Below are positions 34,945 through 61,243 of a stretch of 64,000 nt of DNA, one piece after another. The stretch is from positions 62,001-126,000 of the forward strand of contig NZ_BBRI01000003.1 in assembly GCF_002090075.1 (NCBI RefSeq). The letters run 5' to 3'. A model generated the notes under the pieces. The model searched no databases and had not been told where the DNA came from. It worked only from the letters and a program-made list of their open reading frames with translations. The translations under genes were made by a program, and so were the position numbers. How positions within the stretch are numbered: the stretch's first letter is position 1; every line of letters begins with the position of its first letter. This stretch comes from Demequina sp. NBRC 110052. Lineage in GTDB: Bacteria; Actinomycetota; Actinomycetes; Actinomycetales; Demequinaceae.

Positions 34945-36080
34945 GACGTTCCCCTCTCACCGAGCTGGCCGATGGCGGCGTTCTCCCCGGCCGACGCGTC
35001 GGGTCTTCCGTCGGGCGGTTCCGGGTCCTCTCGCGGCAGTTGGGCGGCGCGTCGTGCCTCGCGGCGCGACGTCGCGCCCATGGCGCCGGCGATGCCGAGC
35101 AGGATCACCGCCTTGATCACGTCCGCGATGGACGACGGGATCGAGCCCGTCGCGGATTGGATGCCGGCGGCGCCGACCGTCAGCGCGGAGAACAGCAACG
35201 CGGAGACGACGATGCCTGCCGGCAGCAGCGCGCCGAGCAGTGCCACGGCGATTCCGCTGAAGCCGACGCCACCGGTCACCGACGTGTAGAGGCGGGAGTT
35301 GAGTCCCGCCAGCTGCAGATAGCCGACGAGCCCGGCTCCGAGCCCGGAGACGAGCATGGTGCGGTAGATGGTGCGTGCGCGGGACACTCCCAGGCGCCTC
35401 GCGAACGCGGGGCGCTCGGCGAAGACGGCGATGCGCGTCGCGGACGCGGTGCGACGCCACCACGCGAACGCGACGGCGATCACGATGACCAGCAGGACAC
35501 CCACATGCGCACGGGTCTGGGGGATGAGCGCGGGGAGCTCAGCGGATTCGGGAAGTGGGTCGCTCTGCGGGGTCGCGACGTTCTCCTCCGTGCCGAGGTA
35601 GGTGCGCAGGGAGAAGGCGAGGAATCCTGCGGCGATGTAGTTCAGCAGCAGGGTCGAGAGGATCTCGTTGACGCCCCAGCGCTCCAGCAGGAACGCCGGC
35701 AGGAGCGCGCAGATCGCGCCACCGAGCGCGCCCGCGAGCGCGCCGAGCAACCAGTGCACGGGAGCGGGGACGCCGTCGCCGAGTGAGAGCATCACCGCGC
35801 CCGAGGCGAGGGCGCCGATGGCGACCTGCCCCTCGGCACCGATCGAGAAGATCCCGGCCCTCAGCGCGGGGATCAGCGTGAGCGCGACGATGCCGATGGG
35901 CACCGCTCCCACGAGCAGCTCGCCGAAGCGGTACGGCGATGCGACGATTCCCTCGACGAAGCCTTGCAGTCCGACCAGGGGGTTGGCCCCGCTGAGAGCG
36001 ATGAGCGCGCCGGCCGCGACGAATGATCCGAGGACGACGGCGATGATGGTGGTCAGACGGCGCAGCGTGGCGGCGCTCAT
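34941..36080 (-). CDS. ABC importer permease 1 (BMP/nucleoside type, NupP/YufP-like)
   Basis: This 379-residue permease is the longer subunit of the pair, as is usual for this system. It shows PIGIVALTLIPALRAGIFSIGAEGQVAIGA, then WGVNEILSTLLLNYIAAGFL. A cytoplasmic tail of about 40 residues follows the last helix. It overlaps both the ATPase gene upstream and the second permease downstream by 4 bases, so expression is tightly coupled. Confidence 0.9.
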   Translation of the reverse strand: MSAATLRRLTTIIAVVLGSFVAAGALIALSGANPLVGLQGFVEGIVASPYRFGELLVGAVPIGIVALTLIPALRAGIFSIGAEGQVAIGALASGAVMLSLGDGVPAPVHWLLGALAGALGGAICALLPAFLLERWGVNEILSTLLLNYIAAGFLAFSLRTYLGTEENVATPQSDPLPESAELPALIPQTRAHVGVLLVIVIAVAFAWWRRTASATRIAVFAERPAFARRLGVSRARTIYRTMLVSGLGAGLVGYLQLAGLNSRLYTSVTGGVGFSGIAVALLGALLPAGIVVSALLFSALTVGAAGIQSATGSIPSSIADVIKAVILLGIAGAMGATSRREARRAAQLPREDPEPPDGRPDASAGENAAIGQLGERGTS

Positions 36081-37633
36081 GAGTTCGCTCCTGCCCGCGC
36101 CAGCCCCGACATGGCGCGGCCGATGCGCGCCGCGGTGGCCTCGTCGGCGGGGATGTCGTCGGCGATGCGGCCGCCGACCAGCACGACGACGCGGTCGGCG
36201 ATGTCGAGCAGCTCATCGAGGTCGTGGGACGCGACGAGCACGCCGGCGCCGCGCTCCGCCGCGGTGACGAGTCGCGCGCGGATCGCCTGGGAGGCGCGCA
36301 GATCCATGCCCTGCGTGGGTCCGTTGGCGACGACGAGGGATGCCGGCGACTCGGCGCTCCACGCGGCGTCGAGCTCGCGCGCGACCAGCAGCTTCTGCTG
36401 GTTGCCGCCCGAGAGGTTGCCTGCCGCCAATGTCGGATCGTGGGGACGCACGTCATACTCGGTGAGCACCGCGGCCTGGGCAGCGACGGCCTGCGCGCGG
36501 CGTCCGGAGAAGCGCGTACGGACGCGCGCACGCGGAGCCGGGTCCACCGAGGCGGCGTAGACAGTGAGATTCTCGCCGACGCTCATGCCGGGCACGACGG
36601 CGTCGGCGCGATGGTCCGGGATCCAGGCGACGCCCGCGGCGAGCGCTCCGGAAGCATCCGACGCCGTGGAGCCTGCCCGCACGACCTCGCCTGCCTGCGT
36701 CGGCGCAATCCCGACCGCCACTTCGGCGAGCAGGTTCTGGCCTGAGCCTGCGACGCCCGCGACTCCCACGATCTCGCCGCGGCGCACCTCCAGGCTCACC
36801 TGCTGCAGATCGGAATCCACGTCGGAGACCGCATCGACCTCGGTGAGGGTGAGCACGGCATCACCGCGCTCGCGGGGCGCGCGTGCGATCGCTTCCGGGA
36901 GTTCGCCCACCATGAGGTGAGCGATGCGGTTGGCGTCGAGCCCCTCCGTGGGACCGGTGAAGACCTGGTGTCCGTGGGAGAGCACGGTGACGTCGTCCGC
37001 GACGGTCAGCACCTCGTCCACGCGGTGCGTGATCAGCAGAATCGCGGTGCCCTGGGCGCACAGCGCGCGCAGGTGCGCGAAGAGGCCTCCCACCTCATGC
37101 GGCCCCAGGCTGGCGGTGGGCTCGTCGAGGATCAGCAGGCGTGCGCCCTCCGCGAGCGCCACCACGATCTCGCCCAGCTGCCGGTGAGCAAGCCCGAGCC
37201 TTCCGGTGGGCGCATCGATGTCCACCTGGACCCCCGCGGAGTCGAGCGTGCGCGAGAGGGCGGCGCGCGCGTCGGACCTGCGGGCGCGAAGGCGCGGCGA
37301 GGCGAGCAGCAGGTTGTCCACGAGCGAGAGGTCATGCACGAGGCTGAGCTGCTGGGGAACCATGTTGATGCCGAGGCTCTTCGCGTGAGCGCGCCCGCTG
37401 ATCTCGACCTCGCGGTCGTTGAGCAGCAGCTGCCCCGAGTCCGCGGGCTGAATGCCCGCGAGAATCTTGGCGAGCGTCGACTTGCCCGCGCCGTTCTCGC
37501 CGACGAGCGCGTGCACGCGGCCCGGCTGAACATCGATCCCCACCTTGGTAAGAGCCTGAACGGCTCCGAAGGACTTGGAGACGGACCACGCCGCGAGCGC
37601 GACGTGGTCCGTCTCCTGGTGCGATGCGACCAT
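36077..37633 (-). CDS. ABC importer ATPase with two nucleotide-binding domains (NupO/YufO-like)
   Basis: The 518-residue ATPase contains two fused NBDs. The first has an intact Walker A (GENGAGKST), a Q-loop, and Walker B LLILDEPTASLG. The second has a degenerate Walker A (GVAGSGQN) but a clear LSGGNQQK signature. This asymmetry is normal for RbsA/NupO-type importers, in which the second site is weakly active. Its ATG overlaps the stop of the binding-protein gene by one base. It energises the two permeases that follow. Confidence 0.92.
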   Translation of the reverse strand: MVASHQETDHVALAAWSVSKSFGAVQALTKVGIDVQPGRVHALVGENGAGKSTLAKILAGIQPADSGQLLLNDREVEISGRAHAKSLGINMVPQQLSLVHDLSLVDNLLLASPRLRARRSDARAALSRTLDSAGVQVDIDAPTGRLGLAHRQLGEIVVALAEGARLLILDEPTASLGPHEVGGLFAHLRALCAQGTAILLITHRVDEVLTVADDVTVLSHGHQVFTGPTEGLDANRIAHLMVGELPEAIARAPRERGDAVLTLTEVDAVSDVDSDLQQVSLEVRRGEIVGVAGVAGSGQNLLAEVAVGIAPTQAGEVVRAGSTASDASGALAAGVAWIPDHRADAVVPGMSVGENLTVYAASVDPAPRARVRTRFSGRRAQAVAAQAAVLTEYDVRPHDPTLAAGNLSGGNQQKLLVARELDAAWSAESPASLVVANGPTQGMDLRASQAIRARLVTAAERGAGVLVASHDLDELLDIADRVVVLVGGRIADDIPADEATAARIGRAMSGLARAGANS

Positions 37634-38646
37634 CAGCCGTCGATCGTGATCGAGCCGTCCTGCAGACCCGCGATGAGGTCTTCCACCGCGGCCGCGATCT
37701 CGGCATCCGCGATCTCGGTGGCGACGAGCCCGCCGTTGGCGATCGTCGACGTGACTCCGCGACCTCCGAAGTCGCCCGCGGCGACCTCCTCGATCCAGGT
37801 GCGGAAGATCGGGGTCATGTCGAGGTTCACCGTCGCGATGTTGACCGCCTGGGCCGCCTCGCCGGCAGCCTCGGAGACGCCGACCGTGGCGACGCCCGCG
37901 TCGGACGCTGCAGACCCCACACCGGTGGCGATGCCGTCACCGGTGGTGAAGATGAGCTCGGCGCCCTGCGCGATGAGGCCGGACGTGGCAGACGCAGCCG
38001 CCTCGGCGTCGTCGAAGCTGCCCGTGTAGATGACGTCCAGCGCGGTGGCGTCAGGGTTCGCGTCGGCGAGCCCCTCCATGAACGCCACGTCGGTGGCGAC
38101 GACGAAGTCGAGCTCGAGGCTCTCGACACGACCGACGGGGCTGAGGCCCGACGCGCCGGCGATGTAGCCGGACAGGTAGCCCTGGTCCGCGGACGAGTAG
38201 GTCCACGTCTCCACGTTATCCGTGTGCTTGTCGAGGATGTCCATGCCGCCCGACGCGGTGAACATGACGTCCGGGAAGTCCTCGGCGACAGCGAAGACTG
38301 CGTCGCCGAGCTCGATGCCGTGACCGATGATCAGGTCGTAGCCCTGGCTCGCGTAGTCGGCCATGATGGGCTCCGCGGTCGCGGAGTCGGAGACCTCGTC
38401 ACGGATCTCGAACTCGATGAGACCCTCGCTCTCGAGAGCCGTAAGCGCCTCGAGCACGACCTGGTTGAAGCCGCCGTCGGTGGTGGTGCCCGGGGTGAGC
38501 GCTGCGACCTTGAGGACCTCGGCACCCTCCCCCGCCTCTGCGGCGGGAGTGGCACCCTCCGTCTCGGTGGCGCAGGCGGAGAGCGCGAGCGCCGAAGCTG
38601 CGGCGAAGCCAGCGCCGAGTGCGGCGCGTCGGTGGGTGTTGAACAT
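37633..38646 (-). CDS. BMP family substrate-binding lipoprotein
   Basis: The 337-residue lipoprotein has signal peptide MFNTHRRAALGAGFAAASAL with lipobox LSAC. The mature protein starts with an acidic linker, then LKVAALTPGTTTDGGFNQ, the BMP-family entry, and later TYSSADQGYLSGYIAG and IATVNLDM. BMP proteins (BmpA, PnrA, NupN) usually bind nucleosides, the probable substrate here by family. The strong aromatic ring-stacking residues of PnrA are not obvious by eye, so another ligand is possible. Confidence 0.88.
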   Translation of the reverse strand: MFNTHRRAALGAGFAAASALALSACATETEGATPAAEAGEGAEVLKVAALTPGTTTDGGFNQVVLEALTALESEGLIEFEIRDEVSDSATAEPIMADYASQGYDLIIGHGIELGDAVFAVAEDFPDVMFTASGGMDILDKHTDNVETWTYSSADQGYLSGYIAGASGLSPVGRVESLELDFVVATDVAFMEGLADANPDATALDVIYTGSFDDAEAAASATSGLIAQGAELIFTTGDGIATGVGSAASDAGVATVGVSEAAGEAAQAVNIATVNLDMTPIFRTWIEEVAAGDFGGRGVTSTIANGGLVATEIADAEIAAAVEDLIAGLQDGSITIDG

Positions 38647-38679: not shown

Positions 38680-39381
38680 TCAGGAGGAGGACGGCACGCC
38701 TGCGAGGAGGCGCACAGCGGGCTGCGAGCTCTCATCGATCGTGGTCGCGCTCATGGTCGCGCCCACGAAGGCGGCGACCTGAGGCGAGTAGTGGCCGAGC
38801 ACCGCGCCGGTAGTGACGGAGAAGCACGGCTCGAGGTCGAGAGTGGCGGGGGCATCGGGGTGGAGAGCCGCGTCGGTGACGCACACGACGTCATGGGAGC
38901 CGAGCGTGCGCAGGGTTCCGGTCGCGGGGAGCCGCCCCTGCTGCTGCGCGGACACGATCAGCGCCGTGGACAGGAAGCCCCGCAGAGTGCGCGCGTCGTC
39001 GCAGTCGCTCGCCGTGCAGCCCTGGCCCCAGACGATGGCGCCGTCTGCGCTCACCTGGACCTGCGCATGCGAGGTGCCTCCCGCGCCGGTCCCCTGTGCT
39101 GTCATCACGATCTCGAGGGCGAAGTCATCGCCGTCGCGGGTGCTGGTGATGTGCTCCACGTACGTGGGCTCGGACTTGGTCGCGGTGACCGTGTAGGCGT
39201 GGGGCCACTGCGCGACGATGCCGGCAAGATCCACCGTGTCACCGTCTGCGGCTCCCGCTGCGGCAGGCGTCAGAAGCAGAGGCAGTCCGACGCCCACCGC
39301 AGCGATGCCGATCAGGAGCAGGCGCACGCCGCCGACGCGGGGCAGGGAGGCCCCCTGCGTTGCGGCGGTGATGGAGCTCAT
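38680..39381 (-). CDS. exported protein of unknown function heading the BMP operon
   Basis: The 233-residue protein has an N-terminal hydrophobic segment (VRLLLIGIAAVGVGLPLLL) followed by AAAGA, either a signal peptide or a membrane anchor. The extracytoplasmic domain contains four cysteines (CTASDC, VVCVTD, EPCFSV) that could form two disulfides, and is otherwise Ala/Thr-rich. I recognise no family. A GGAGAGGG ribosome site precedes the ATG. The gene is only 33 bases ahead of the BMP lipoprotein gene, so it is probably co-transcribed and may assist ligand capture; that role is inference. Confidence 0.7.
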   Translation of the reverse strand: MSSITAATQGASLPRVGGVRLLLIGIAAVGVGLPLLLTPAAAGAADGDTVDLAGIVAQWPHAYTVTATKSEPTYVEHITSTRDGDDFALEIVMTAQGTGAGGTSHAQVQVSADGAIVWGQGCTASDCDDARTLRGFLSTALIVSAQQQGRLPATGTLRTLGSHDVVCVTDAALHPDAPATLDLEPCFSVTTGAVLGHYSPQVAAFVGATMSATTIDESSQPAVRLLAGVPSSS

Positions 39382-39436
39382 GCGCCCTCTCCAGACTCGG
39401 GTGCGCCACCGTCAGGGGTGTGGCGGCATTGCGATC

Positions 39437-39442
39437 ACCGTA
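39437..39442 (-). promoter_or_regulatory. candidate -10 box (TACGGT) of the BMP operon
   Basis: TACGGT on the minus strand lies 56 bases ahead of the first gene of the operon and 5 bases from the palindrome at 39447-39460. No clear -35 is visible. Confidence 0.35.
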
Positions 39443-39446
39443 CGCA

Positions 39447-39460
39447 ACTTGTTGACAAGT
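39447..39460. promoter_or_regulatory. palindrome ACTTGT-TG-ACAAGT, candidate operator of the BMP operon
   Basis: The 6-bp arms are perfect. A related imperfect copy, CTTGTTAACATG, occurs at 39553-39564. TTGT...ACAA words are typical of GntR-type operators; the regulator is not encoded nearby. Confidence 0.5.
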
Positions 39461-39564
39461 ACGTGACGATTGGCCCAGGAATTTACATGGAAGTAACGTC
39501 ACATGGCTCTCCAAGCACGGAACTGAGCCCGCCCGCGCCGCCCGGGAAACTGCTTGTTAACATG

Positions 39565-39784
39565 TCGGCAATGTGATGCGTGCGGCGGCCGCGCTTCACG
39601 CCCACCACAACCCTGCCCTTCACGCCCCCTTCACGTCACGAAGAGCACACGAGGGGCACGCCTCGGAGGTGCACCGATCGGCGGGAGGTCCCCAGGCACC
39701 TCATCGCCCACGAGATTGGCCCCATAGCAGGCGCGATGACTCGATCGACATATGGACCTCGAATGTCACAATTTGGTCAAGGAA
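39565..39784. other. non-coding stretch between the two importer operons
   Basis: The gap from 39382 to 40048 carries divergent promoters and a leader (listed separately). This middle part shows no convincing gene. The open frames lack coding character and ribosome sites, and I see no repeat in it. Confidence 0.5.
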
Positions 39785-39814
39785 TTGCATTGCCTGTTTT
39801 GCAGTTGTTACCTT
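39785..39814 (+). promoter_or_regulatory. promoter of the betaine importer operon (TTGCAT/TACCTT)
   Basis: TTGCAT at 39785-39790 and TACCTT at 39809-39814 are separated by 18 bases, inside an unusually AT-rich patch. Transcription would start near 39821, leaving a leader of about 230 bases before the GTG at 40049. Confidence 0.5.
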
Positions 39815-39820
39815 CGACAA

Positions 39821-40048
39821 GGATCCGTGCCAGGACTGCACCTCGCCGTGCAGGTCGCGCGGGTCAATGAAACCCAGGTCCGCGGGCCTCGCTCTCTGAG
39901 GCGAGGCGCGTATGGCCACCCGCGTTGGTGCCGCTATCCGGCGGCGCAGCGAGGGATCGTGCGGGCGCTTCGCGTCCCGATCTCCGCGCGGGGCCCGGAC
40001 CGCGACTGAAGTTTCGTGCAGACATGCGCGAAAGCTGAGGACGAATCT
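39821..40048 (+). promoter_or_regulatory. long structured 5' leader, candidate cis-regulatory RNA
   Basis: The predicted leader holds at least three perfect stems: CTGCAC/GTGCAG at 39836-39853, GCCTCGC/GCGAGGC at 39886-39907 and GCCGC/GCGGC at 39930-39945. A short GGGT/ACCC pair lies between the first two. No open frame with a ribosome site runs through it. I could not match it to a known class such as ydaO/c-di-AMP. Its place before an osmolyte importer makes a regulatory RNA plausible. Confidence 0.4.
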
Positions 40049-41344
40049 GTGAGCGACAGCATCGCTTTGCGTGCGGAAGGCCTGTTCAAGGTATTCGGCA
40101 AGCACGCTGACCAGGCCGTGAACCGTCTGCGCGAGGGCACCCCTCGCGACCAGCTCGGCTCCGGCACCACCGCCGCCGTGATCGACGCCTCCTTCGAGGT
40201 GCAGCGCGGCGAGATCTTCGTCGTGATGGGCCTGTCCGGCTCGGGCAAGTCGACGCTCATCCGCATGCTCAACGGCCTGCACGACGTGACCGCGGGCACC
40301 GTCACCATCGCCGACGACACCATCACCGACATCCCGGCCGCGAAGCTGCGCGAGATCCGCCGCAAGCGCGTGTCCATGGTGTTCCAGCACTTCGCGCTCC
40401 TGCCCCACCGCACCGTGCTCGACAACGTCGCCTACGGACTCGAGATCCAGGGCATGCCGAGGGCCGAGCGCGAAGCGAAGGCCCGCGAGGTCACCCAGAT
40501 CGTCGGCCTCGCCGGCTGGGAGGACAAGGTCCCCAGCCAGCTCTCCGGCGGCATGCAGCAGCGCGTCGGCCTCGCCCGCGCACTCGCCGCTGACACCGAG
40601 GTGCTCCTCATGGACGAGGCGTTCTCCGCGCTCGACCCGCTGATCCGACGCGAGATGCAGGAGCAGCTGCTCGAGCTCCAGAGCACGCTCGGCAAGACCA
40701 TCATCTTCATCACGCACGACCTGAACGAGGCCATGTTCCTGGGTGACCGCATCGCCGTCATGCGCGACGGCCGCATCGTCCAGATCGGCTCGCCGGAGGA
40801 CATCCTCACGGACCCGGCGAACGAGTACGTCGAGCAGTTCGTGGCCGACGTGGACCGCACCCGCGTGCTGACCGCTGAGTCGGTCATGCGCAAGCCGCGC
40901 GCCGTCGTGCACCCCTCCGCAGGACCGCACGGCGCCCTCAAGATCATGCGCGACGAGCAGCTCAGCGCGGTGTACGTCACCAAGCGCGACCGCAGCCTCG
41001 TCGGCTGGGTCAGCGACCGCGACGCACTCGAGCTGGTACGCAAGGGCGAGCGCGACCTCACCAGCATCGTGCGCGAGGACCACGGCGCCGTACCCGCCGA
41101 CACCTCGCTGTCCGACTTGTTCATCCCCGCGCTCGAGTCGCAGCTGCCGCTCGGCGTGCAGGACGACAAGGGCCGCCTCGTGGGAGTCATCCCGCGCGTC
41201 ACGCTCCTCGCGACGCTGGGTGGCGAGCCAGACGCGGCGGCGCAGGCGGCCGCGCGCCCTGACCCGCTTCCCACCGACGTGGTCGACAAGGCCCTGGAGG
41301 CCGCCGTCGACTCAGGTTCGATCGACACCAAGGAGGTGCAGTGA
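40049..41344 (+). CDS. proV: glycine betaine/proline ABC importer ATPase with CBS domains
   Basis: The 431-residue ATPase of the OpuAA/ProV family powers uptake of compatible solutes. Walker A is GLSGSGKST at 61-69, the signature [15 protein letters not shown], and Walker [13 protein letters not shown]. The N-terminal LFKVFGKH plus a long insert before the first strand is typical of ProV. Residues from about 285 form a CBS pair, which senses ionic strength in OpuA. I chose the GTG at 40049 because GAGGA sits 7-8 bases upstream; the earlier GTG at 40016 lacks a site. It overlaps the permease ATG by one base. Confidence 0.95.
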
Positions 41345-42294
41345 TGGAATTCCGCATCCCCTTCGGCACGTGGATCGAGACCGGCAAGGACTGGATCGAG
41401 AACAACCTCGACTGGCTGCTGAGCTTCCTCGGCGACCTGTGGACCGGCATGTACGACGCGGTCAACTGGGTCTTCGCGACGCCCCCCGCGATCGCGATCA
41501 TCATCGTGCTTGCCATCGCGGCACTCTTCGCCCGCGGCTGGAAGTTCGCGCTCGGGACCGTGGCCGGCCTGGTGTTCATCATCGGCGTCGACCAGTGGGA
41601 GAACTCCATGGACTCGCTGTCCCTGGTGCTCGTCTCCGCAGTGCTCGCACTGCTCCTGGGCATCCCGCTCGGCATCTGGGCGGCGCGCAACCAGCATGTG
41701 TCCAACATCGTGAAGCCCGTCATGGACTTCCTGCAGACCATGCCCGCGTTCGTCTACCTGATCCCCGCGATCGCCTTCTTCGGCGTGGGCGTGGCCCCGG
41801 GAATCTTCGCCACCGTGCTGTTCGCGATCGCTCCCGGCGTGCGCCTGACCGAGCTCGGCATCCGCAACGTGGACAAGGAGGTAGTCGAGGCCGGCCAGGC
41901 CTTCGGCGCCTCGCCTCGACGCATCCTGCGCCAGATCCAGCTGCCCCTGGCGATGCCGTCCATCATGGCCGGCGTCAACCAGGTCATCATGCTGTCGCTG
42001 TCGATGGTCGTCATCGCCGGAATGGTCGGCGCCGGCGGACTCGGTGGCCAGGTCACCCGCGCCGTCTCGGGCCTCGACATCGCCATCGGGGCCGAGGCAG
42101 GCATCTCCGTGGTGATCCTCGCGATCATCCTGGACCGCTTCACCGGCGCGTTCGGGCAGAAGCGCGGCCTGCACCTCATCCGCAGGATCCGCGGCACCGT
42201 GCTCAAGGACTCCCCCATCAAGGAGACCGAGGGCAAGGACACCGAGCGCATCCTCGCGGAGAACTCGGGCAACCGCCGCAACCCCGGCCGCTGA
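41344..42294 (+). CDS. proW: glycine betaine/proline ABC importer permease
   Basis: The 316-residue permease of the ProW/OpuAB family begins [25 protein letters not shown], the typical amphipathic start. The helices from about 50 on include [19 protein letters not shown] and the coupling loop [26 protein letters not shown]. Translation is coupled to proV by TGATG. The C-terminal 50 residues are hydrophilic. Two inverted repeats lie between it and the binding-protein gene. Confidence 0.95.
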
Positions 42295-42326
42295 CCCCCA
42301 TCCCCTGACCGCACACCACTAGACCT

Positions 42327-42404
42327 CGCGATTCGTGTCGGATCGCGCGCACCCCGCCCCGACCGATGGGCGGAACCGGTGCTCACGACGTGGGGAGACT
42401 CCCC
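42327..42404 (+). promoter_or_regulatory. two intercistronic hairpins between proW and proX
   Basis: CGCGAT/ATCGCG at 42327-42347 (9-base loop) and GGGGA-GAC-TCCCC at 42392-42404 occupy the 132-base gap ahead of the binding-protein gene. They could stabilise the downstream message or attenuate read-through; neither has a T tract. Confidence 0.4.
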
Positions 42405-42426
42405 TCGTTGGGAAAGGACACTCATC

Positions 42427-43335
42427 ATGAAGATGCGCTCTTTCGCGCCTCTCGCCCTCACCGCCGCCGCGGGCCTCGTGCTCGCGGGCTGCTCCTCGAC
42501 CGGGGACGACGCCGAGCCCACTGACTCGGCCACCTCGACCGAGGACACCGCCGGCGGCGAGATCACCTTCGGCGTGTTCAACGGCTGGGACGAGTCGGTT
42601 GCCTCGTCGCTGCTGTGGGAGGCCATCCTCGAGGACAAGGGCTACGACGTCACCCTCGAGTACGCGGACCCCGCCGTGACCTTCCAGGCCCTCGCCGACG
42701 GCGACTACGACCTGGTCACCGACGTGTGGCTGCCCGCGACGCACGCCTCATACCTCGAGGAGTTCGGCGACGACATCACCGAGGTGGGAGCCTGGTTCGA
42801 CAGCGCCGCCCTGACGGTCGCCGTGAACGCCGACGCCCCGATCGACTCGCTCGCCGAGCTCGCAGACAACGCGGACGCGTTCGGCAACCGCATCGTCGGC
42901 ATCGAGCCCGGCGCCGGCCTCACCGCCGCCGTCGAGGGTGCGATCCCGGTCTACGGCCTTGAGGGCATGGACTTCATCACCTCGTCGACCCCGGCCATGC
43001 TCGCCGAGCTCGACTCGGCCATGGCGGATGGCGAGAACATCGCCGTCACGCTGTGGGAGCCGCACTGGGCCTACGGCGCCTACGACCTCAAGAACCTTGA
43101 GGACCCGGAGGGCACCCTGGGTGACGCCGAGTCGATCTACACCTACTCCCGCAACGGCTTCGGTGACGACTTCGCCGAGGTCGAGGGCTGGCTCGCCGGC
43201 TTCACCATGGAGTCCGACCTGCTGTACGACCTCGAGAACCGCCTCAACGCGGCCTCGGGTGAGTCGGAGTACCCCGAGATCGTCGCCGGCTTCATCGCCG
43301 ACAACCAGGAGTGGGTCGACTCGCTCACCGCGTAA
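42427..43335 (+). CDS. proX: glycine betaine/proline-binding lipoprotein
   Basis: The 302-residue lipoprotein has signal MKMRSFAPLALTAAAGLVLA with lipobox LAGC. The mature OpuAC domain starts ITFGVFNGWDESVASSLLWEAIL and contains the Trp residues expected to box the quaternary ammonium group: VWLPATHASYL, TLWEPHWAYGAYDLK, and VEGWLAGF. AAAGGA lies about 8 bases before the ATG. It is separated from proW by 132 bases but has the same orientation and ends at a strong terminator, so it is probably the third operon member with extra expression of its own. Confidence 0.94.
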   Translation: MKMRSFAPLALTAAAGLVLAGCSSTGDDAEPTDSATSTEDTAGGEITFGVFNGWDESVASSLLWEAILEDKGYDVTLEYADPAVTFQALADGDYDLVTDVWLPATHASYLEEFGDDITEVGAWFDSAALTVAVNADAPIDSLAELADNADAFGNRIVGIEPGAGLTAAVEGAIPVYGLEGMDFITSSTPAMLAELDSAMADGENIAVTLWEPHWAYGAYDLKNLEDPEGTLGDAESIYTYSRNGFGDDFAEVEGWLAGFTMESDLLYDLENRLNAASGESEYPEIVAGFIADNQEWVDSLTA

Positions 43336-43365
43336 GTCTCACTCGCGGCGCTGACGCGTCGGAAC

Positions 43366-43401
43366 ACGAAGGCCCCGGGGCGCATGCCCCGGGGCCTTCG
43401 T
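43366..43401. terminator. strong hairpin terminator after proX
   Basis: A 16-bp perfect stem begins ACGAAGGCCCCGGGGC, followed by loop GCAT and its exact complement. It starts 31 bases after the proX stop. Confidence 0.9.
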
Positions 43402-43462
43402 CGTGCATACGGGCAGTCGCGCGGTACAGAACTGTCCACTGCGATGCACGGCGGGCTCCGGA

Positions 43463-43480
43463 GCGTCACTGGCGGTCCAC
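43463..43480 (-). repeat. inverted diverged copy of the 41-bp repeat core
   Basis: On the minus strand it reads GTGGACCGCCAGTGACGC. This matches the repeat core GTGGAC-GCT-CAGTGACG except for the three middle bases. Confidence 0.6.
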
Positions 43481-43500
43481 TTCCCTGCACCCGTGCCCCT

Positions 43501-61166: not shown

Positions 61167-61243
61167 GCCCCCGTAGCTCAGCTGGATAGAGCGTCGGACT
61201 TCTAATCCGTTGGTCGCAGGTTCGAATCCTGCCGGGGGCGCCA
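61167..61243 (+). tRNA. tRNA-Arg(TCT)
   Basis: A complete cloverleaf is present: acceptor GCCCCCG pairs with CGGGGGC, D-arm TAGCTCAGCTGGATAGAGC, anticodon loop CTTCTAA with anticodon TCT, T-arm GCAGG-TTCGAAT-CCTGC. The discriminator G and encoded CCA (61241-61243) follow. It reads the rare AGA arginine codon. Confidence 0.97.

Follow-up and report, generated by a model that had tools for sequence, protein, structure and literature searches.

A conserved, candidate riboswitch-like RNA in the proVWX leader of Demequina

Introduction

Does the long leader that precedes the proVWX importer genes of Demequina sp. NBRC 110052 act as a regulatory RNA? We addressed this question in a window of 64,000 nt, by which we mean the whole stretch of DNA analysed; it is part of a 2.6 Mb high-GC genome (G000) of the genus Demequina (Micrococcales, Demequinaceae). 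In the open-access literature on betaine or osmolyte riboswitches of actinobacteria, on Demequina riboswitches and on proV leaders, we found no description of such an element, which leaves room for an unnamed motif in a supplement; PMC2864571 and PMC6429828 gave no betaine, opuA or osmo passage.

Results

Genomic setting of the leader

The features of the locus are collected in Table 1. The original prediction of about 230 gene-free bases before proV holds, since the 228 nt of the leader contain no likely gene and the overlapping ORFs are mechanical only. The product of proV scores 416 bits with TIGR01186 (cut-off 326.6) and carries ABC_tran and CBS domains. The cargo of the importer (betaine, choline or proline) is not settled, as the choline-transporter and ProX models score under their cut-offs.

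Table 1 Predicted features of the proVWX leader and the genes that follow it (positions in the window)
Feature	Position	Strand	Details
Promoter	39785-39814	+	weak -35 TTGCAT 39785-39790; extended -10, hexamer TACCTT 39809-39814
Whole leader RNA	39821-40048	+	from approximate start (putative transcription start) to start codon
P1, 5′ hairpin	39822-39865	+	39822-39830 with 39857-39865; 39833-39839 with 39850-39856; compensatory pairs among 5 close relatives
Conserved linker AATGAAACCCA	39866-39876	+	GACCAG within it in relatives; alignments A1, A2, A6, A7
P2 5′ strand GGTCCG	39877-39882	+	closes three-way junction
P3 hairpin	39883-39910	+	strongest covariation of the window-type alignments
Junction J3/4, UAU	39911-39913	+	UAY in family, motif GUAYGG; alignments A6, A7
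P4 arm	39914-39995	+	base GGC/GCC; inner hairpins 39926-39949 and 39954-39983, based on clade A only
P2 3′ strand CGGACC	39996-40001	+	
Conserved 3′ flank GCGACTG	40002-40008	+	about CGYRAY in family; alignments A2, A6, A7
P6 hairpin TTTCGTGCA-gaca-TGCGCGAAA	40012-40033	+	ends 3 nt upstream of the Shine-Dalgarno sequence
Shine-Dalgarno GAGGA	40037-40041	+	
proV, ABC ATPase with CBS domain	40049-41344	+	downstream of leader; start codon GTG 40049
Permease, proW-like	41341-42294	+	PF00528; TIGR03416 316 bits, under cut-off 363
Substrate-binding protein, OpuAC domain	42394-43335	+	PF04069 190 bits

The promoter had been called near-consensus, which overstates it: its -35 element is weak, and a promoter scan listed just one other weak site (39745-39772) and not the promoter itself. 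What stands is the extended -10, which recurs in 40/40 relatives. Specifically, all 40 Demequina loci carry a TAnnnT -10 box 215-253 nt upstream of the proV start codon; for L039 the regex match at 251 is a non-homologous box, and the homologous TACGAT was placed by eye. For clades A, B and C, which cover 32 of the 40 loci, pairwise identity is 0.60-0.94 within the leader and 0.68-0.89 over the first 90 nt of proV, and falls to 0.39-0.47 upstream of about -245, with the exception of clade B (0.64 at -280 to -245).

Two forms of the leader within the genus

A ProV orthologue was found in 40 of 44 genus genomes, 41 of which reach 90% completeness or more with no more than 5% contamination, and all 40 carry the leader in one form or the other. 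The remaining four (G032, G035, G036 and G037) gave no ProV at E<=1e-60; G035 is 88% and G036 85% complete. The canonical form, with a near-invariant core CGTGAYTGCCGTNCGACGGCTGCG, accounts for 34 of the 40 leaders; 33 have the exact core and one, L027 (G041), has a variant whose changes are mostly pair-preserving. When this core without its first base was searched with up to three mismatches across 47 genomes of the family, 44 of them Demequina, it occurred exactly at 33 places, one per genome, in just those genomes whose proV leader carries it; 5 additional places had 3 mismatches each.

The second, window-type form lacks the canonical core and is found in clade A, comprising the window and G004, G021, G028 and G043. 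A divergent member of this form, L032 (G040), is known only as a weak match, at the homologous place, to R2 (23.7 bits, E 2.2e-4), the covariance model of the window-type form trained on 11 leaders; the corresponding model of the canonical form, R1, was trained on 21. The two forms recognise each other weakly. R1 scores 17.8 bits (E 0.032) at the homologous position of the window leader and 16.0 bits for clade-A leader L011, comparable to a chance match elsewhere at 16.3 bits. Over 34 loci, the top two matches of R2 are leaders of canonical clade E (L042 and L043; E 0.022 and 0.024), at the homologous place; R2 puts L035 and L021 there too, but with E above 1. Given these cross-matches, and a promoter spacing, linker and P2 position common to both, we take the two forms, with good confidence, to be one family.

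Additionally, a direct repeat GTCA-n7-GTCA of 11-bp period lies at 39765-39779, directly before the promoter. Upstream of the promoters of the remaining clade-A leaders, GTCA-n7 is followed by GTCA (L012), GTTA (L011), ATTA (L010) or GTAA (L009), so that a regulator site may add transcriptional control.

Predicted fold and its covariation

In the predicted overall plan, conserved flanks border a three-way junction, one hairpin lies at the 5′ end and another close to the Shine-Dalgarno (SD) sequence. The count of three perfect stems in the original prediction was loose, as a local stem search gives one perfect 6-bp stem (39836-39841 with 39848-39853), one 10-nt stem at 90% (39883-39892 with 39901-39910), and others that are shorter or contain G-U pairs; the stems themselves are borne out as conserved and covarying. 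The window leader folds with -124 kcal/mol (z -2.25; 5 of 200 shuffles equally good), the minus strand has a folding z of -0.15, and the median z over 40 genus leaders is -1.79, with 16 of them below -2. Folding energy alone is modest evidence, and the case therefore rests on conservation and covariation. RNAalifold on the five clade-A sequences yields 73 pairs, 19 of them with compensatory changes, and the window sequence folded alone is much like this consensus fold.

We then considered the alignments of both forms. Alignment A1 holds the 34 canonical leaders among the 40, excluding L032 and the five clade-A leaders; A5 holds 21 of these 34 and omits clade B on account of a one-base offset in its P2. 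For A5 and A6, the tested structures had been derived from those same sequences. A6 and a 19-sequence MAFFT alignment were not model-fitted, while A7 was fitted to the R2 structure, so that counts on it lean towards that structure. P2 of the canonical leaders is a long-range helix closing the domain; on A5, both sides have changed in 5/6 of its pairs, with 97.6% of cells paired. Window-type leaders of two other families (f13 and f19), aligned to clade A, repeat its plan, including P2, a P3 opening with CG/CG, the junction UAY, a P4 opening with GGC/GCC or GGU/ACC, and the conserved flanks. On all 21 rows of A7, the first two P4 pairs are G-C wherever both letters are present. The third P4 pair is C-G in 10 and U-A in 9 of 19. 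G-U cells outnumber A-C cells by 96 to 17 on A5 and by 22 to 15 on A7, which favours the plus strand.

The covariation score of A6 is 0.348, compared with 0.131 when shuffled and at most 0.136 when partners are slid by 1-3 columns; that of A5 is 0.201, compared with 0.130 when shuffled and at most 0.162 (+3) upon sliding. None of 500 shuffles reaches either score. The shuffle measure is weaker for further pair types, where 54/500 shuffles reach A5 and 54/500 reach A6, and for pairs changed on both sides, where 103/500 reach A6. We also applied an R-scape-like tree-based test (G-test with APC, E<=0.05), whose null redistributes parsimony-inferred substitutions on a FastTree tree; the off-target rows L164:1824 and L227:1030 were dropped from A7 and the 19-sequence alignment. 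The proposal to align proV leaders of relatives and look for covariation was borne out: the leader is conserved in relatives, and on the unfitted MAFFT alignment of 19 window-type members 3/16 pairs exceed the tree-based null, versus 20/9437 other column pairs. The corresponding numbers are 3/16 versus 19/10569 for A6, 4/15 versus 17/9715 for the model-fitted A7, 1/6 versus 117/24084 for P1 of A1, and 0/37 versus 1/9554 for A5. The significant pairs lie in P3 and P1; a P4 base pair passes on the fitted A7 only, with E of 0.053 and 0.072 on the unfitted alignments. No P2 pair passes this test, its support coming from the counts, and an all-against-all covariation search on A1 gave nothing significant. 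We attribute the null results on A1 and A5 to few deep clades and to MAFFT misalignment of the variable hairpins.

Matches in untrained genomes

R1 recovered 13 of 13 clade-B leaders, none of them in its training set, each where expected (E 1.7e-13 to 2.9e-16), and in the order sample its matches fall in 28 of 396 genomes, all Demequina. R2, run on the 396 whole order genomes, matched 20 at E<=0.01, a threshold at which a few chance matches are expected; 10 of these were training genomes and 10 untrained. The untrained matches ranked 1-6 (G363, G402, G287, G301, G196 and G202; E 3.0e-19 to 3.2e-8) and 8 (G355; 6.5e-4) end 33-82 nt upstream of proV on the same strand. For the others, G115 (rank 7; 1.5e-4), G339 and G290 (0.006-0.008), no ProV match was found within 3-kb loci. 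The proV-adjacent R2 matches cover families f1, f13 and f19. Scans of more than 40 genomes used stricter filters, at which weak matches are lost.

Among the best-scoring 49 of 61 proV upstream regions from other genera, 6 contain the window-type pattern, written as a regex after the sequences were inspected, where dinucleotide shuffles predict 0.25; a recognisable copy of the leader is thus absent before most proV genes in the order. A canonical pattern scan of genome contigs returned 45 records, 31 of them Demequina. The 14 non-Demequina records carry the core by selection and reach best R1 scores of 11.7-27.5 bits (best E 1.9e-4); the two whose surroundings were viewed, L118 and L147, both overlap long ORFs with no adjoining proV-like ORF by eye. 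In the class sample of 197 genomes, R2 gave 6 matches outside the order (E 0.002-0.007), and around the 5 examined as loci no match to proV, proW or proX was found.

Another pattern is shared upstream of proV, namely AGGTCA (AGGACA in L178) followed by GCAYGGTRGA. With a regex likewise written after inspection, it occurs in 5 of the same 49 regions (L169 and L174 of family f3, L171 and L179 of f13, L178 of f9); dinucleotide shuffles predict 0. The pattern may mark an element of its own or a more distant variant of the leader; a quick alignment did not convince.

Likely output and known RNA families

Helices of ≥6 bp that end no more than 6 nt from the SD sequence occur in 20/39 leaders versus 21% of shuffles, and those of ≥5 bp in 29/39 versus 46%; L036 was omitted here because its SD sequence was not recognised. 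No single SD-sequestering partner is common to the leaders, the best column pairing with the SD in 17/33, and the unpaired probability of the SD is middling (median 0.39 over 39 leaders). The attenuator offered as an option by the original prediction was rejected as an intrinsic terminator, as 39000-43500 of the window contains no intrinsic-terminator-like site and T-rich stretches are few: the most T-rich 8 nt of each leader contain 3-4 T in 32 of 40 cases, 5 T in 7 and 6 T in 1, so 8/40 have 5-6 T. Since helices adjoining the SD are enriched and no terminator-like site occurs, control at translation initiation is the likeliest output. A conserved upstream ORF was also rejected as a candidate, an SD-like sequence upstream being rare and frame lengths inconsistent among canonical and clade-A leaders. 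In clade-C leaders such as L040, L045, L047, L021 and L028, we observed by eye that the stems of the SD-adjacent hairpin vary and its loop often keeps TGACGC, which looks like a contact site.

The Rfam search that had been suggested gave no Rfam 15 match in the window leader at gathering or permissive thresholds. Six genus loci gave none at E<=1, and 16 order loci gave two tRNAs and one chance miRNA match, none in a leader. This agrees with the idea of an unclassified regulatory RNA, given the conserved, covarying stems, although the regulation itself is presumed from sequence. The ydaO-yuaA riboswitch controls potassium and osmolyte genes elsewhere, and a parallel with this c-di-AMP sensor had been drawn for the leader. 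The parallel fails in Demequina: its family RF00379 has no match over the gathering threshold in the window leader or in any of the 44 genus genomes, and the diadenylate cyclase (DAC) domain PF02457 was likewise found in 0/44. Controls were positive for RF00379 in Bacillus subtilis and Corynebacterium glutamicum, and for PF02457 in 11/14. With neither found, c-di-AMP is unlikely as the ligand, and the genus may lack c-di-AMP signalling.

Discussion

Our analysis places a conserved structured RNA in the 5′ leader of what would be transcribed as one unit; the RNA, its helices, its place before proV and its spread across families are supported by computation. On balance, we lean towards an undescribed riboswitch-like structured RNA of proVWX, with ligand, switching and regulation being putative. 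The proVWX mRNA would begin about 228 nt before proV and carry a cis-acting RNA consisting, in order, of the 5′ hairpin, the linker, the three-way junction (P2, P3, P4 and the 3-nt UAY), the CGYRAY tail and the hairpin adjoining the ribosome-binding site. The junction and its conserved flanks could bind a signal of osmotic state other than c-di-AMP, either a compatible solute (betaine, choline, proline) or an ion, and the stability of P2 might be coupled through the tail and P6 to ribosome access at the proV SD. Since the strong matches precede proV, the natural candidates are a solute that the importer carries or a direct signal of osmotic state; with a single gene context found, the ligand is not readable from varied genes. 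A tentative and rather doubtful reading is a new Actinomycetota riboswitch class whose direct input is a compatible solute (betaine, choline, proline or similar) or the ionic state of the cell and which sets osmolyte import without c-di-AMP.

A different picture, less probable but to be taken seriously, is that protein binding or nuclease cleavage of the leader sets mRNA stability or translation without any small-molecule ligand. The variable P6 stems with kept TGACGC loops of canonical clade C fit this picture, as does the RNase III dependence of the osmolyte-importer mRNA betT in E. coli, reported in PMC4067347. However, no candidate protein is known, and the strongest conservation falls on junction and internal-loop nucleotides of an extended multi-helix fold, which seems more than a simple protein site would need. 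It is improbable that the fold senses ionic strength or temperature physically, melting or tightening to alter access to the ribosome-binding site: osmotic stress does alter internal ion levels and a hairpin does adjoin the SD, but a pure melting device would presumably not need near-invariant unpaired nucleotides.

Classic attenuation through an upstream peptide or terminator appears very improbable. A GTG is present at the core in 34/34 canonical (A1 column 156) and 5/5 clade-A leaders (A2 column 141), yet it is preceded by an SD-like sequence in just 2/34 and 2/5, respectively; its frames end at many lengths, inside the leader in 22/34 canonical and 3/5 clade-A leaders, loop indels shift the frame in clade A, and the lack of a terminator-like site in 39000-43500 of the window weighs on the same side. 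That conservation acts on the DNA, through regulator sites such as the GTCA repeat, with an incidental fold, is extremely unlikely given that conservation rises from the -10 onward and that compensatory pairs and the G-U asymmetry are present. Finally, the modest single-sequence z scores would suit an ordinary untranslated leader with chance stems in high-GC DNA, which is scarcely credible when the models find the leader again, ahead of proV, in genomes outside their training sets.

The nearest known RNAs, compared by description, are the proX motif of the gammaproteobacterial Spiribacter and the opuB motif of Enterobacteriaceae. As PMC8632094 describes it, the proX motif (SRC-29-1) is a riboswitch candidate with 17 representatives, mainly from Spiribacter and saltwater samples, and resembles the Demequina leader as a structured RNA directly before a betaine-transport gene (proX) with proposed translational control. 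Its ribosome-binding site can be occluded by its P2 (PMC8632094), whereas the Demequina leader is actinobacterial and has a three-way junction, a distinction drawn from description. Similarly, PMC11109978 places the opuB motif (SRC-50-1) before a compatible-solute ABC importer, with a complex fold that involves the SD; by description it differs in phylum and in its five paired elements, of which P1 is built in part from the SD, and its authors report a ligand with relevance to shikimate and aromatic amino acids. According to PMC8632094, ydaO-yuaA is comparable as a riboswitch whose signal is linked to osmotic distress, but it is set apart by the lack of RF00379 matches and of the diadenylate cyclase domain described above.

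If the riboswitch-class reading is true, an importer would be read out, through RNA, by the cargo that it carries, which bears on how osmolyte uptake is tuned in bacteria apparently without c-di-AMP. A leader that binds a compatible solute would be a direct RNA sensor of osmoprotectants. The leader could also be of use in actinobacterial engineering, as a control element responding to salt or solutes. Its clear boundaries, testable three-way junction and one constant target gene offer a direct route to a ligand.

Elsewhere in the window, the minus strand at 36077-38646 encodes a divergent ABC importer with a Bmp-type binding protein, for which the closest NCBIfam models (putative B6 transporter) score well under their cut-offs, and a tRNA gene at 61167-61240 is the sole Rfam gathering-level match.
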